Source of the DNA: Gammaproteobacteria bacterium
GTDB taxonomy: Bacteria; Pseudomonadota; Gammaproteobacteria; SZUA-140
NCBI GenBank assembly: GCA_020845975.1
Contig: JADLET010000145.1
Coordinates: forward strand, 1-35,998
DNA length: 35,998 nt
Direction of reading: 5' to 3'
Shown: positions 4,750 through 13,979 of the stretch, one piece after another
Layout of the letters: the number at the start of each line of letters is the position of its first letter
Numbering within the stretch: the first letter of the stretch is position 1
Made by a program: the position numbers and the translations under genes
Notes under the pieces: generated by a model
What the model saw: the letters and a program-made list of their open reading frames with translations, nothing else
Told to the model about the DNA's origin: nothing
Databases searched by the model: none

Positions 4750-6114
4750 TCAGCGGATCCAGACGGTCTTGGCGTTGACGAACTCGAGCATGCCGAGGCG
4801 CGACAGCTCGCGCCCGTAGCCGGAATCCTTCACGCCGCCGAAGGGCAGGCGCGGATCGCTCTTGACCATGCCGTTGACGAAGGCGCAGCCGCACTGGAGC
4901 CGCCGCGCGATGTGCTCGCCGCGCGCGGCATCGCGCGTCCACACGCTGCCACCGAGACCGAAGCGCGAGGCATTGGCCAGTTCCACGGCCCCCGCCTCGT
5001 CGCGCACGCGCAGCACCGCGGCCACCGGGCCGAACAGTTCCTCGTCGGCGGCCGGCATGCCGGGCGTGACATGATCGAGGATCGAAGCGTGATAATACGC
5101 GCCCGGTCCCGGGATCGGTTCGCAGCCCGTCACCGCGACGGCGCCGCGCGCAATGCTCGCCTCGACCTGGCGGTGCAGCTCGTCACGCAGGTCCGGCCGC
5201 GCGAGCGGCGCGAGCGTGGTGTTCGGATCGAGCGGATCACCCGCGCGCAGCGCCTCCACGCCGATGCGGAAGCGCTCGACGAACTCGTCGGCGATGGCCT
5301 CATCGACGACGAAACGCTTGGCGGCGATGCAGCTCTGGCCCGCGTTGACAAAGCGCGAGGCGACGGCATTCGCCACGGCGAGTTCAAGGTCCGCGTCGGC
5401 CAGCACGATGAAGGCGTCGGACCCGCCCAGCTCGAGCACGCACTTTTTGAGCGCGCGCCCGGCGGCGGCGCCGACCTTGCGGCCCGCGGCCTCGCTGCCG
5501 GTGAGGGTCACCGCGCGCACGCGCGGGTCCGCGATCACCGCCTCGACCTGGGCGGCCTCGATCATCAGCGTCGTGAACGCGCCAGGCAGGAAGCCGGCGT
5601 CCCGGAACAGTTCTTCAATCGCCAGCGCGCACTGAGGCACATTGGAGGCGTGCTTGAGCAGGGCGGTGTTGCCGGCGGCGAGCGCCGGCGCGGCAAAACG
5701 GAATACCTGCCAGAAGGGGAAATTCCACGGCATGATCGCGAGCACGGGGCCGATCGGCTGGAAGGCGACGAGGCTGCGGCCGGCATCGCTCACGACGTGC
5801 TCGTCGGCGAGAAAGGCGGCGGCGTGGTCGGCGTAGTACTCGCAGCCGAGCGCGCATTTCTCGACCTCGGCGCGCGCCTCGCCGATCAGCTTGCCCATTT
5901 CGCGGGTGATCAGGCGGGCGAGCGGGTCGAGCCGTTCGCGCAGGAGCCAGGCAAGTTCGCCCAGCAGTTCGCAGCGCCGGGCGATCGGTGTGTCCGACCA
6001 CAGTTCCGCCGCCGCGGCCGCGCCGCCGAGCGCGGCGTCGATCTGTGGCGTTTTCCAGGGCGCGATCACCTTCAGGGTCGTCCCGTCTTCCGGATTGATC
6101 GATCTGAACGTCAT
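4750..6114 (-). CDS. NAD(P)-dependent aldehyde dehydrogenase (succinate-semialdehyde dehydrogenase-like)
   Basis: A 454-residue aldehyde dehydrogenase superfamily enzyme that oxidises an aldehyde to the acid. The catalytic cysteine is C262 in NAGQSCIAAKR and the general base is E228 in LELGGSD. The oxyanion asparagine lies in MPWNFPFWQ and the cofactor loop in LTGSEAAG. Length and motifs fit the Sad/GabD-like subgroup, usually annotated as NAD-dependent succinate-semialdehyde dehydrogenase. The true substrate cannot be read from sequence and no GABA or succinate-semialdehyde genes are adjacent. ATG at 6114 has a GAGG ribosome-binding site. The next gene, a TauE/SafE exporter, follows after 24 bases, so the acid product or a related anion might be exported (inference). 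Confidence 0.88.
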   Translation of the reverse strand: MTFRSINPEDGTTLKVIAPWKTPQIDAALGGAAAAAELWSDTPIARRCELLGELAWLLRERLDPLARLITREMGKLIGEARAEVEKCALGCEYYADHAAAFLADEHVVSDAGRSLVAFQPIGPVLAIMPWNFPFWQVFRFAAPALAAGNTALLKHASNVPQCALAIEELFRDAGFLPGAFTTLMIEAAQVEAVIADPRVRAVTLTGSEAAGRKVGAAAGRALKKCVLELGGSDAFIVLADADLELAVANAVASRFVNAGQSCIAAKRFVVDEAIADEFVERFRIGVEALRAGDPLDPNTTLAPLARPDLRDELHRQVEASIARGAVAVTGCEPIPGPGAYYHASILDHVTPGMPAADEELFGPVAAVLRVRDEAGAVELANASRFGLGGSVWTRDAARGEHIARRLQCGCAFVNGMVKSDPRLPFGGVKDSGYGRELSRLGMLEFVNAKTVWIR

Positions 6115-8875: not shown

Positions 8876-8933
8876 AATCACCCATCACCCATTACCCATC
8901 ACGCCTTTGATCTATCACTAGGTCCTTAGTCCT
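8876..8933. repeat. Family A repeat, copy 1
   Basis: Read on the minus strand, downstream of ubiX: AGGACTAAGGACC, a spacer, ATCAAAGGCGTGATGGGT, then AATGGGTGATGGGTGATTAT. The same module order occurs after the genes ending at 16434, 25167 and 26642. The ubiX stop codon (8926-8928) lies inside the GGACTAAG unit. Confidence 0.85.
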
Positions 8934-9543
8934 GTTTATCTTCCCCCCACCGCGGCACGAGCCGGTGCTCGACTCCAAGGTGGTCGAGGATGCGGGCGAC
9001 GACGAAATCGACCAGATCTTCGATCTTCTGCGGGCGGTGATAGAAGCCCGGGTTCGCCGGCATGATGACGACGCCAAGGCGGGCGAGTTTCAGCATGTGC
9101 TCAAGGTGGATGGCGGACACCGGCATCTCGCGGTGTACCAGTATCAGCTTGCGCTGTTCCTTGATGACGACGTCGGCGGCGCGTTCGATCAGGTTGTCGC
9201 TGCTGCCCATGGCGATCGCGGCCAGCGTGCCGCTGGTGCACGGGCACACGACCATCGCGTCCGGCGCGCCGGAGCCGCTGGCGAGCGGGGCGGTCCACTG
9301 GTCCTTGCCATAGACCTGCAGCTGGCCGGGCTCAGCGCCGTAATGATCACTCAGATAACGCTCGGCTTCACGCGGCGCGCCTGGCACCTTGAGGTCGGTC
9401 TCCATCGCGATGACCATCTGTCCCGGCGGCGACAGCATCAGCGGTACGTGCACGCCGGCCTCGAGCAGACATTCCAGCAGGCGCAGGCCATAGGCCGCGC
9501 CGGAGGCGCCGGTCAGCGCGAGCGCGATGGTTTTAGCGGCCAT
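8926..9543 (-). CDS. ubiX: Flavin prenyltransferase UbiX
   Basis: A 205-residue UbiX. It joins dimethylallyl phosphate to FMN to make prenylated FMN, the cofactor of UbiD-type decarboxylases, including the one used in ubiquinone synthesis. Family motifs are clear: [12 protein letters not shown] (FMN phosphate loop), [37 protein letters not shown] and [18 protein letters not shown] at 9543 lies inside the end of mpl (11-base overlap), so translation is probably coupled. The final residues and stop codon (CAG GAC TAA) coincide with a family A repeat unit, so the natural C-terminus may have been reset by the repeat. No ubiD lies in the window. Confidence 0.95.
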
Positions 9544-10906
9544 GCTGCAGTGCCTCGAGCAGTCGTGTGTGGATGTTTTCGAATCCGCCGTTGCTCATGA
9601 TCAGGATATGGTCGCCGCTGCGGCCGTGGGCCGTGAGATGGTCGATGATGGATTGTACCCGATCGAAAACGCGCGCGCGTGGACCGATCGCATCGGCGAT
9701 TTCACCCAGCGACCAGCCGAGATCGGCGGGTTGATAGAAGAGCACCTCGTCGGCCTGCGCGAGCGACGGGGCGATCTGTTCCTTGTGCACGCCCATCTTC
9801 ATCGTGTTCGAACGCAGCTCCAGCACGGCGACAACGCGCGCCGGGCCGACGCGGCGGCGGAAACCGTCCAGCGTGGTCGCGATCGCGGTCGGGTGGTGGG
9901 CGAAATCATCGTATACCGCGATGCCGCCGACCGTACCGCGCAGCTCCAGCCGGCGCCGGACGTTGCGGAACTCGCCCAGTGCCGCGATCGCCTCCGTCGG
10001 CGGTACGCCGGCGTGGCGCGCCGCGACGATGGCGGCAAGCGCGTTGCTCATATTGTGGCGTCCGCTCAGCTCCCAGTTCACCGTGCCGATCTCGCGGGCG
10101 CCGTGCATCACGGTGAATTCGCCACCGTCGGCCTTGAGCGGGCACGCCCGCCATTGCGCGGCGTCGGGCGTGTCGTCGGTGCGGAAGTACTCGACATTCG
10201 TCCAGCAGCCCATGCCGAGCACCGTGGCGAGTTCGGCGTCGCCGGCGGGCGAGACGATCAGTCCCGAGCCGGGTACGGTTCGGACCAGGTGATGGAACTG
10301 ACGCCGGATTGCCGCGAGGTCGGGAAAGATGTCGGCGTGGTCGAATTCAAGGTTGTTCATCACCAGGGTGCGCGGCCGGTAATGCACGAACTTCGAGCGT
10401 TTATCGAAGAAGGCCGAATCGTATTCATCGGCCTCGACTACGAAGAACGGCGCGTCGCCGAGGCGGGCGGAGCCGCTGAAGTTGAGCGGGGCGCCGCCGA
10501 TCAGGAAGCCCGGATTCAGTTTCGCGTACTCGAGGATCCACGCCAGCATGCTGGAGGTCGTGGTCTTGCCGTGCGTGCCGGCCACAGCGAGCACCCAGCG
10601 ATCCTTCAGTACATGGCGCGCGAGGAACTCCGGTCCCGACACATAGTCGAGTCCGCGGTTGAGCACGTGTTCCACCGCGGGATTGCCGCGCGACAGCGCG
10701 TTGCCGATCACCACCAGGTCCGGCGCCGGCTCGAGGTGTTCCGGTTTGTAGCCCTCGTAGAGTCGAATGCCGCTGTTCGCGAGCTGGGTACTCATGGGCG
10801 GATAGACATTGAGGTCCGAACCCTCGACCTCAAGGCCGAGTTCGCGCGCGATCAGGGCGATGCCGCCCATGAACGTGCCACAAATCCCCAGGATATGAAT
10901 GCGCAT
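9533..10906 (-). CDS. mpl: UDP-N-acetylmuramate:L-alanyl-gamma-D-glutamyl-meso-diaminopimelate ligase
   Basis: A 457-residue Mur ligase family member that attaches recycled murein tripeptide to UDP-MurNAc in the cytoplasm. The N-terminus [20 protein letters not shown] is diagnostic for Mpl versus MurC. The ATP loop reads [12 protein letters not shown], followed by [21 protein letters not shown] and the central-domain motif [12 protein letters not shown]. The length is normal. ATG at 10906 begins one base after the stop of the upstream membrane protein gene (TGAGATG), and the 3' end overlaps ubiX, so all are likely one operon. No anhydro-muropeptide permease or amidase gene is nearby. Confidence 0.96.
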
Positions 10907-10907
10907 C

Positions 10908-11435
10908 TCAGGTGGTCTCCGGAAAGAACAGGATTCGGGTCACGCTGTAGGAAGTGAACATGTAGGCCAGCGCCAGCAGCACGCCGATCGGCAGGCGCGT
11001 CGCCAGCGTGTGGCGCAGGATATTGCCGATGACCATCAGGTTCCACATCAGCCAGATCCACAACAGCAGGGAGGCGATCATCAGGGAGGTGCTGATGGTC
11101 TCTTCGGCCAGCCCGGCCTGCTGCCAGGAAATGATCGGCAGGGCCACCAGCTGGAGGATCGCGCCGGTCCCCAGCAGCGCGGTCAGTGTCTGACCATAGC
11201 GCGCCAGCAGGGCGCGGCTCCACAGCAGCGCGAACAGCAGACCCGCAAGCAGCGCGATGTCCAGTCCCATCAGCAGGATTGCCCGCGCGACGTCGAGATT
11301 CTGCGCCGACATGATCATGCCGGCGGCGAAATAGCCCAGGCCGCTCAGCCACAACAGAAGGCCGGAGGACGGCAGGTCCTGCGGTCCGGCGCGCAGCAGA
11401 CAGATATCAAAATAGCGCTGCAGCAATCTACCCAT
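10908..11435 (-). CDS. Hypothetical multi-pass membrane protein
   Basis: A 175-residue very hydrophobic protein with about five predicted membrane helices (segments near residues 24-42, 51-70, 82-104, 115-137 and 145-165) and short loops. No enzymatic motif is recognised. Such a protein is commonly seen beside mpl in related bacteria, and here its stop is one base from the mpl start, suggesting co-expression and possibly a role linked to cell envelope or peptide recycling (inference). ATG at 11435 has an AGGAG ribosome-binding site 5 bases upstream. Confidence 0.75.
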   Translation of the reverse strand: MGRLLQRYFDICLLRAGPQDLPSSGLLLWLSGLGYFAAGMIMSAQNLDVARAILLMGLDIALLAGLLFALLWSRALLARYGQTLTALLGTGAILQLVALPIISWQQAGLAEETISTSLMIASLLLWIWLMWNLMVIGNILRHTLATRLPIGVLLALAYMFTSYSVTRILFFPETT

Positions 11436-11490: not shown

Positions 11491-12369
11491 TTACATGGTG
11501 AAGTATTTGGCCTGTGGATGGTGTGCGACGATCGCGCTGGTGCTTTCCTCCGGCCACAATTGATCCTCGTCGCCGAGGGTCACACCGATGCGGGAGGCAT
11601 CGAGCAGCGCGAGGATCTTGTCCTGGTCCGCGAGGTTGGGGCAGGCGGGATAGCCGAAGGAATAGCGCGAACCGCGGTAGCCCTGCTTGAGCACCTCGTG
11701 CATGGAGCGCGCCTCATCGCGGCTGAAGCCGAGTTCGGCGCGAATGCGCTTGTGCACGTATTCCGCCAGTCCCTCGGTCGATTCGACGTTCATGCCGTGC
11801 CAGTACAGGTATTCCTGGTACTGGTCCGCCTTGAACAGCTCGCGCGCGAAGTCCGAGGCGTGTTGCCCGACGGTGACGAGTTGAAAACCGACCACATCGG
11901 CTTCACCGGATTCGCGCGGGCGGAAGAAATCGGCCAGGCAGAGGTGGCGTCCCTTCGGCTGGCGCGGGAAGGTGAAGCGGCAGCGTTCGCGCTGGCTGGC
12001 GGGATCCTCGTACACGATCAGATCATTGCCATCGGCGTTGCAGGGGAAGTAACCGTAGACCGCCTGCGGACGCAGAACGTCCTCACGTTCGCTGCGTTCG
12101 AGCAGGCGGTTCAGGATCGGGTCGAGCTCAGCGCGGGCAAAGGCCTGGTATTCATCGTCCGAGCGCCCGGCGGCCTTGTAGCCCCATTGAAACTTGTACA
12201 GGGTCTTGCGGTTGATGTAGGGCACTACCGCACGCAGCGGTATGCGTTCGATGCAGCGGCTGCCCCAGAACGGCGGCGCAGGAATCGCGTTATCGTGTCT
12301 GATCCCGGCCGGTTCGCCTTCATGGGGTTGCTGGTCTGTCGTATCGATGTCCTTCACGTCGAACATCAT
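11491..12369 (-). CDS. Stand-alone methionine synthase (MetH) reactivation domain protein
   Basis: A 292-residue protein homologous end to end to the C-terminal activation domain of cobalamin-dependent methionine synthase, which uses SAM and flavodoxin electrons to re-methylate inactive cob(II)alamin. Visible signatures are LRPQAVYGYFPCN, RHLCLADFFRPRESGEADVV and YRGSRYSFGYPACP, the last being the SAM-binding RxxxGYPACP element. It has its own ATG (12369 or 12366) and no homocysteine, pterin or cobalamin domain upstream: the preceding 84 bases are intergenic and the next gene is unrelated. So it is either a naturally split MetH or a detached fragment. Intact motifs and reading frame argue that it is functional. 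It is 55 bases upstream of the membrane protein/mpl/ubiX genes. Confidence 0.9.
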   Translation of the reverse strand: MMFDVKDIDTTDQQPHEGEPAGIRHDNAIPAPPFWGSRCIERIPLRAVVPYINRKTLYKFQWGYKAAGRSDDEYQAFARAELDPILNRLLERSEREDVLRPQAVYGYFPCNADGNDLIVYEDPASQRERCRFTFPRQPKGRHLCLADFFRPRESGEADVVGFQLVTVGQHASDFARELFKADQYQEYLYWHGMNVESTEGLAEYVHKRIRAELGFSRDEARSMHEVLKQGYRGSRYSFGYPACPNLADQDKILALLDASRIGVTLGDEDQLWPEESTSAIVAHHPQAKYFTM

Positions 12370-12878: not shown

Positions 12879-13146
12879 GCTACGGGTGTCCGGGGTCGAT
12901 ATAGCGCAATATCCTACTGCCCTGCTTCACCGGGTGTCGTGACCAGGATCTCATAACTCACGGATTTTACAAGACAAGGGTGGGCGTCGGGGGCTGGTTA
13001 CGCCTGCCGGATCCGTCGCGATGGCGGGAGGCGGGCGGAACACTGAAATTTTTATCCCGGGTTGCCGCTAACTTAGATCAGAACTCGGGGCGGTGATGTC
13101 CCGCGAGTCATGTACTGTGAATTTTTTACCCAAGGAGATCAATCCG

Positions 13147-13506
13147 ATGAACAAAGAAGAAATCGATAATGCTATCGGAGCTCATGGCAGCTGGAAGGTG
13201 CGTCTCAAGGATGCGATCGAGACGGGCCGGAGCGACATCCCGGTGGAGACGATCCGCAAGGATAATAACTGCCAGTTCGGCAAGTGGCTCTATGGCGGGA
13301 CGCTGAGCACGGCGGACAAGACCTCGGCACATTACAAGAAGGTGCGGGAATTGCATGCCGAATTCCATAAATCTGCCGCTCGTGTAACGGAACTGGCTCT
13401 GGCGGGTCAAAAGACAGAGGCGGACCAGATGATGACGCGTGGCGGCGAATTCGCCGCGGTGTCCTCCAGGTTGACCTCCGCCATGATGGAGTGGAAGAGG
13501 GTTTAA
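13147..13506 (+). CDS. Stand-alone CZB (chemoreceptor zinc-binding) domain protein, copy 1
   Basis: A 119-residue protein consisting essentially of one CZB domain. The zinc ligands of the family are in place: H13 (GAHGSWK), C42 in NCQFGKWLYGG, and H70 and H74 in RELHAEFHK. CZB domains sense zinc or cysteine oxidation (for example hypochlorous acid) and are usually fused to chemoreceptors or GGDEF diguanylate cyclases; here there is no partner domain. ATG at 13147 follows AAGGAG; an upstream in-frame start at 13093 lacks one. A close paralog follows at 13617. It could act as a soluble zinc or redox sensor for a partner elsewhere (inference). Confidence 0.9.
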   Translation: MNKEEIDNAIGAHGSWKVRLKDAIETGRSDIPVETIRKDNNCQFGKWLYGGTLSTADKTSAHYKKVRELHAEFHKSAARVTELALAGQKTEADQMMTRGGEFAAVSSRLTSAMMEWKRV

Positions 13507-13616: not shown

Positions 13617-13979
13617 ATGATAAACAAAGACGAGATCGACAAGGCCATTGGCGCCCACGGCATGTGGAAGTCGCGCCTCAAGCAGACGATCGAAACTGGC
13701 AAGAGCGATACCTCAGTGGACACAATCCGGCAGGATACCCAGTGCAATTTCGGCAAATGGCTCAACGGCGGATCGTTGAGCGCGGCGGACAAGTCGTCGG
13801 CGAGTTACCGGACGGTGCGTGACCTGCATGCTGAATTTCACAAGTCCGCGGCCCATGTGGCGGAGCTGGCGATCACCGGCCACAAGGAGGAGGCAAGCAA
13901 GTTGCTGGCGTTCGGTGGCGAGTTCGCCTCGGTGTCCTCCAGGCTGACGTCCGCCATGATGGATTGGAAAAAGGTTTAG
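13617..13979 (+). CDS. Stand-alone CZB domain protein, copy 2
   Basis: A 120-residue CZB domain protein, clearly a tandem duplicate of the gene at 13147. The zinc ligands are conserved at H14, C43 (QCNFGKWLNGG), H71 and H75 (RDLHAEFHK), and both proteins end in a near-identical SSRLTSAMM(E/D)WK(R/K)V tail. Differences cluster in surface positions, for example TGKSDTSVDTIRQD against TGRSDIPVETIRKD. ATG at 13617 has a GGGAGGATCACCAGG ribosome-binding region. The 110-base gap from copy 1 contains a strong hairpin, so the two may be expressed at different levels. Transaldolase follows 63 bases later. Confidence 0.9.
   Translation: MINKDEIDKAIGAHGMWKSRLKQTIETGKSDTSVDTIRQDTQCNFGKWLNGGSLSAADKSSASYRTVRDLHAEFHKSAAHVAELAITGHKEEASKLLAFGGEFASVSSRLTSAMMDWKKV

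Follow-up and report, generated by a model that had tools for sequence, protein, structure and literature searches.

A stand-alone activation-domain protein as the probable fifth domain of a split methionine synthase in a gammaproteobacterium

Cobalamin-dependent methionine synthase (MetH) is the textbook protein in which several modules have to be moved over a single cofactor. In the gammaproteobacterium studied here this enzyme is very probably split, and a gene found in the window (the whole stretch of DNA that was analysed, 35,998 nucleotides long) very probably encodes a separate fifth domain for a core MetH whose gene lies elsewhere in the genome. Comparison with known families confirmed that the window gene is real and that it is a stand-alone MetH activation domain.

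The activation-domain protein and its SAM site

The gene and two motifs of its product are located on the minus strand of the window:

11491..12369, minus strand, stand-alone MetH activation (SAM-dependent reactivation) domain protein, 292 aa, ATG start
11923..11943, minus strand, LCLADFF motif, residues 143-149, intact, placed by alignment of 36 long-type domains
11638..11667, minus strand, RYSFGYPACP motif, residues 235-244, placed by column mapping to 1MSK

Residues 45-291 of the protein match Pfam PF02965 (6.1e-44) with a score of 150.9 bits against a curated cut-off of 25, and the NCBIfam metH model TIGR02082 (2.5e-73) is matched over positions 905-1181 of 1182, which is its C-terminus alone. 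The preliminary description of this DNA, made from the letters only, had read the protein as the C-terminal reactivation domain of MetH and nothing else, with its own start and with intact GYPACP and LCLADFF motifs. All of this was borne out, as only PF02965 and the end of TIGR02082 are matched, the ORF opens with ATG, and both motifs are present whole (GYPACP at residues 239-244). The same description had also likened the sequence to the MetH of cyanobacteria and others, which proved to be loosely right: the domain does belong to the long MetH type, but its closest sampled one-piece relatives are from Planctomycetota and Geminicoccaceae, and its nearest solved chains are those of Thermus-type MetH (3.6e-70), followed by the E. 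coli chains (6e-27) and then the human one. Alignment with Planctomycetota and other long-type domains revealed no obvious loop or difference in length that would set the stand-alone form apart, and a longer loop in the activation domain, compared with the window protein, belongs to Thermus.

Seven SAM contacts are given for the E. coli domain in PMC1282579, namely D946, E1101, Y1130, R1134, Y1139, Y1189, and Y/F1190. Six of them are retained in the window protein as E203, Y231, R235, Y240, Y289, and F290, the RYSFGYPACP stretch containing the equivalents of R1134 and Y1139, and these six residues are invariant in all 24 stand-alone rows of the alignment. The seventh contact, Asp946 of E. coli, corresponds to N53. 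An Asn residue occupies this column in 36 of 36 long-type rows, one-piece enzymes included, and in the Thermus chains too, so that the Asn marks the type and is not a sign of decay. An AlphaFold2 model built from the 36 aligned sequences (pLDDT 85.7, pTM 0.83; residues 1-19 and 225-232 at low confidence) predicts that the protein adopts the characteristic MetH activation-domain fold, with a TM of 0.86 to the Thermus Cob-Act fragment 8sse and of 0.81 to the E. coli activation domain 1msk. The predicted fold resembles that of the stand-alone Thermotoga protein TM0269 (1j6r) more weakly (E 8.6e-08, TM-score 0.46 by the length of the window protein).

The core MetH and the distribution of the split

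The genome of the window (G000 hereafter) comprises 2.92 Mb in 207 contigs and is 94.94% complete with 4.57% contamination. It contains a single PF02965 match, which is the window gene. PF02574 is matched once, by a 528-aa frame that has Hcy and Fol domains and is cut off by the end of contig C119. PF02607 is likewise matched once; here the frame, 240 aa long and comprising Cap and Cob, is already open where contig C134 ends and closes 41 residues past the cobalamin-domain match. Compared with the gene of locus L023, a stretch of approximately 86 residues is lacking between these parts, and it was not recovered from the assembly in a search run without a positive control. In six relatives the core metH is whole, a single frame of 856-869 aa (about 860 aa) without the activation domain. 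The first of the two explanations offered in the preliminary description, a MetH that is split in this organism, thereby gains support, as a partner that stops after the Cob domain is indeed present, in two halves on C119 and C134, and neither a full-length MetH nor a MetE (PF01717) was found in this 94.94% complete genome.

The genes of C119 and C134 both flank a single metH in the related genome G003, while in G002 they directly adjoin each other and show mostly 74-95% identity to that stretch; both contigs thus flank one gene. The tetranucleotide correlation with the window amounts to 0.98 for the C119 as well as the C134 stretch, compared with 0.58-0.89 for G001, G003, G006, and G014 and again 0.98 for G002, a congener of G000. 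Contamination as the source of the core metH was rejected on the basis of this correlation and of the identity to G002.

The distribution of the separate gene was followed in three samples. In the order sample of 20 genomes, all of one family, a short-type PF02965 gene occurs in seven (G000, G003, G004, and G006-G009) without any Hcy-Fol or Cob match in the flanking DNA examined. The same seven genomes contain the core MetH separately, and those of the other six are 74-79% identical to that of G000 over Cap-Cob. An E. coli-type activation domain is found in nine further genomes (G001, G002, G005, G010-G012, and G014-G016), that of G005 being cut by contig ends. No PF02965 match was obtained in the remaining four, two of which (G013 and G018) carry E. 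coli-like Cob matches at contig ends and two (G017 and G019) weak Cob matches only. Across a sample spread over the class, PF02965 is present in 73 of 114 genomes, with the separate type (284-309 aa) in five of these 73 (G000, G049, G074, G117, and G122).

The third sample consisted of the best 80 of 154 named loci. Among these, all 22 loci with at least 65% identity have domain frames that lack Hcy-Fol and Cob, and nearly all are labelled as Gamma- or Betaproteobacteria. The stand-alone frame measures 279-363 aa in 21 of them and 638 aa in L040, where the extra upstream part matches neither Hcy-Fol nor Cob. Of the other 58 loci, whose identity does not exceed 57%, all have a one-piece gene or one left open by a contig end, save L041 and L083, in which the frame breaks inside metH. 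As the gene is separate in 22 of 22 close loci and in 7 of 20 order genomes, mostly in the same neighbourhood, it is not an artefact of assembly. As a side observation, the break in L041 (JAJDET010000143.1), a long-type MetH of Planctomycetota, falls between Hcy-Fol and Cob and represents either a frameshift or another split.

A tree calculated from 90 activation domains places the 24 stand-alone rows in a single clade (100/98) that adjoins the one-piece MetHs of Planctomycetota and Geminicoccaceae (the lineage of Arboricoccus), and the 13 split cores likewise group together (SH-aLRT 99) in a quick tree calculated from 68 Hcy-Fol halves. Read as trees that are unrooted for the question of origin and whose rows were chosen for their similarity to the window gene, both are consistent with a long-type MetH having been split once, in its Cob-Act linker, and with later spread of the split form by descent or transfer.

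Gene neighbourhood, joint loss, and decay

Three genes follow the activation-domain gene on the same strand:

10908..11435, minus strand, 175-aa ORF, the next gene after the window gene, no Pfam or NCBIfam match, conserved neighbour
9533..10906, minus strand, mpl (Mur ligase family), Pfam Mur_ligase domains, conserved neighbour
8926..9543, minus strand, ubiX (flavoprotein family), PF02441, synteny

The window gene had been placed upstream of mpl-ubiX, which is right, with the 175-aa ORF in between. This order is kept in six other split genomes (G003, G004, G006, G007, G009, and G008, the last being locus L022). The 175-aa ORF is also a conserved neighbour in family members that do not have the activation-domain gene. 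Across the 22 named stand-alone loci, mpl is located less than 1 kb downstream in 13 and 4.7-5.2 kb downstream in three, and it is unseen in six. In seven of these 22 loci the core metH is found no more than a few kb from the stand-alone gene. L024 and L026, two nearly identical loci, have it directly downstream on the same strand, after 32 bp; in L027 and L037 the two genes are arranged head to head, separated by 139 and 177 bp; and in L023, L028, and L030 the distance is 1.1-2.3 kb. No core metH was seen in the flanking DNA examined of the other 15, and in G000 the two genes sit on different contigs. No Rfam match at the gathering score was obtained for the window, for the C119 and C134 ends, or for the loci of six relatives, and with no cobalamin, SAM, or SAH riboswitch at these loci, co-regulation through a riboswitch is without support.

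The neighbourhood invites a speculation to which we assign little probability, that the freed reactivation protein might be a separately dosed repair factor, made sparingly together with the mpl-ubiX group and serving many MetH molecules, so that repair would be tuned to cell-wall recycling or to the quinone (redox) state and not to methionine need. The long-kept closeness of the window gene and mpl would be a sign of such dosing. Elsewhere in the window, two small proteins of 137 and 120 aa are encoded in tandem on the plus strand (13093-13506 and 13617-13979), and they consist of hardly anything but a CZB (chemoreceptor zinc-binding) domain, without a receptor part.

Two congeners of split genomes bear on the connection between the window gene and the core MetH. 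G002 belongs to the same genus as G000 (their Mpl proteins are 90% identical) but its MetH is of the one-piece E. coli type. In the corresponding place, flanked by the same neighbours, lies a relic of the window gene (L143, positions 5265-5666, on contig C23 of G002) that has suffered an internal loss of about 430 bp plus a smaller loss of 42 bp; in this relic GYPACP has become GHSARP, and the preceding Arg is gone. Over the last 82 codons, the relic differs from the window gene at 21/18/21 sites by codon position, an even distribution as in unconstrained DNA, while the ubiX genes of the same two genomes differ at 14/2/54. The core metH is missing in G002 between conserved flanks. G005 is a congener of the split G004 and likewise has an E. 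coli-type MetH; no trace of the activation-domain gene was detected there between tal and the 175-aa ORF. Possession of the one-piece enzyme thus goes together with the loss of both halves, a pattern that links the window gene to the core MetH. G002, the one case with a clear decayed relic, can be regarded as a natural knock-out, in which, beside the one-piece enzyme, the catalytic half has been lost and the repair half is decaying. Each of these two genera includes one species with the split long-type MetH and another with the one-piece E. coli type, indicating that the enzyme type was exchanged more than once in the family.

Proposed action in trans, its alternatives, and known systems

In the mechanism that we propose, the catalytic protein, which consists of Hcy-Fol-Cap-Cob, is encoded elsewhere in the genome and ends after Cob, and the window gene would provide the missing fifth domain as a free protein. 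Whenever the cofactor has lapsed into the inactive Co(II) state, this free protein would bind SAM and attach to the Cob domain of its catalytic partner, remethylate the cobalt using an electron supplied by a reductase, and then depart. The role of the activation domain in the one-piece MetH is given in PMC10567725. We infer the action in trans, with the binding of the two proteins, the SAM-dependent methylation, and the electron donor, from the co-occurrence of the two genes and from their joint loss and decay.

The other explanation offered in the preliminary description, that the domain reactivates another corrinoid enzyme and not methionine synthase, gained no support and is now very unlikely. 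It could draw on the fact that the protein is free and unlinked to metH in this genome, and on one further PF02310 match, weak and below the cut-off, on contig C33. Nevertheless, the core MetH is the sole PF02607 (MetH-type cap) protein of the genome and the only one with PF02310 over the cut-off; it co-occurs with the stand-alone gene in seven of seven genomes, and the gene is decayed or absent in congeners with a one-piece MetH.

Even less credence can be given to the gene being a functionless leftover of a truncated metH, despite the relic of just this gene in G002. In contrast to the even 21/18/21 pattern of that relic, the window gene differs from the intact G003 copy at 8/8/38 sites by codon position over the last 81 codons, and a separate gene has been maintained across many Gamma- and Betaproteobacteria. 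The preliminary description had allowed for decayed motifs or an assembly error; what we found instead are intact motifs, mostly third-position substitutions relative to G003, and a split that recurs in many genomes.

Some bacteria reactivate MetH without an activation domain by means of a RamA-like protein (PMC5764234), and the core MetH might likewise be served by another system of this kind while the separate domain drifted to a different SAM-dependent role. This is scarcely credible, given the six SAM-site residues conserved without exception among the stand-alone rows and a retention and loss of the gene that track the core MetH; a RamA/RACo-type activase was also rejected as an alternative, since no such protein was found in the genome with PF14574. 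An artefact of assembly or binning, with a metH that is truly one piece or with core contigs from another organism, could appeal to the contig gap that breaks metH and to the 4.57% contamination, but in view of the six relatives whose core stops after Cob in one frame, the arrangement of the C119 and C134 genes in G003 and G002, and the tetranucleotide correlation of both contigs with the window, it is most improbable for G000 and is already refuted for the family as a whole.

A separate activation domain beside a core MetH has counterparts in other bacteria. The MetH of Bacteroides thetaiotaomicron is split into BT0180 and BT0249 (GapMind paper, PMC7311316), which by the published description is the same kind of split in a different phylum from that of the window organism, and for other bacteria it has been stated that the activation domain "can be a separate protein" (PMC5764234). 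By the title of the study, the reactivation of TM0268 in Thermotoga maritima requires TM0269 (Huang et al., 2007), which would make TM0269, like the window protein, a stand-alone activation protein for a MetH without that domain. It differs in being a 197-residue chain, compared with the 292 aa of the window protein, and was rejected as a sequence relative, as a profile of the stand-alone clade, run against the PDB sequences, did not detect 1j6r up to E 10, and the match is one of fold only.

The one-piece long-type MetH of Thermus thermophilus (8ssc, 8sse, and 8g3h) is the nearest known system in sequence and fold and has the same SAM-site columns, but its activation domain is fused behind Cob. 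The three-part methionine synthase of Phaeobacter inhibens also distributes MetH over separate proteins, including a separate reactivation protein, although, as described in PMC5764234, the cut sites are others, there is no PF02965 protein, and the reactivation protein is a non-homologous DUF4445 (RamA-like) protein. The open-licence literature searched yielded the Bacteroides and Phaeobacter splits and no description of this proteobacterial one. With the Bacteroides split published, and by title that of Thermotoga, the arrangement reported here is already of a known sort; it is the unusually clear record of loss and decay that sets this case apart.

With the repair module free, reactivation can be studied as an encounter of two proteins that is not affected by a linker. 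For genome annotation, the split genomes look as if their metH were truncated, and they could be called unable to make methionine. Besides, the labels of two of the named loci look wrong, as the domains of L031 (titled Klebsiella pneumoniae) and L073 (Leptolyngbya) group with Betaproteobacteria and Phycisphaerales.
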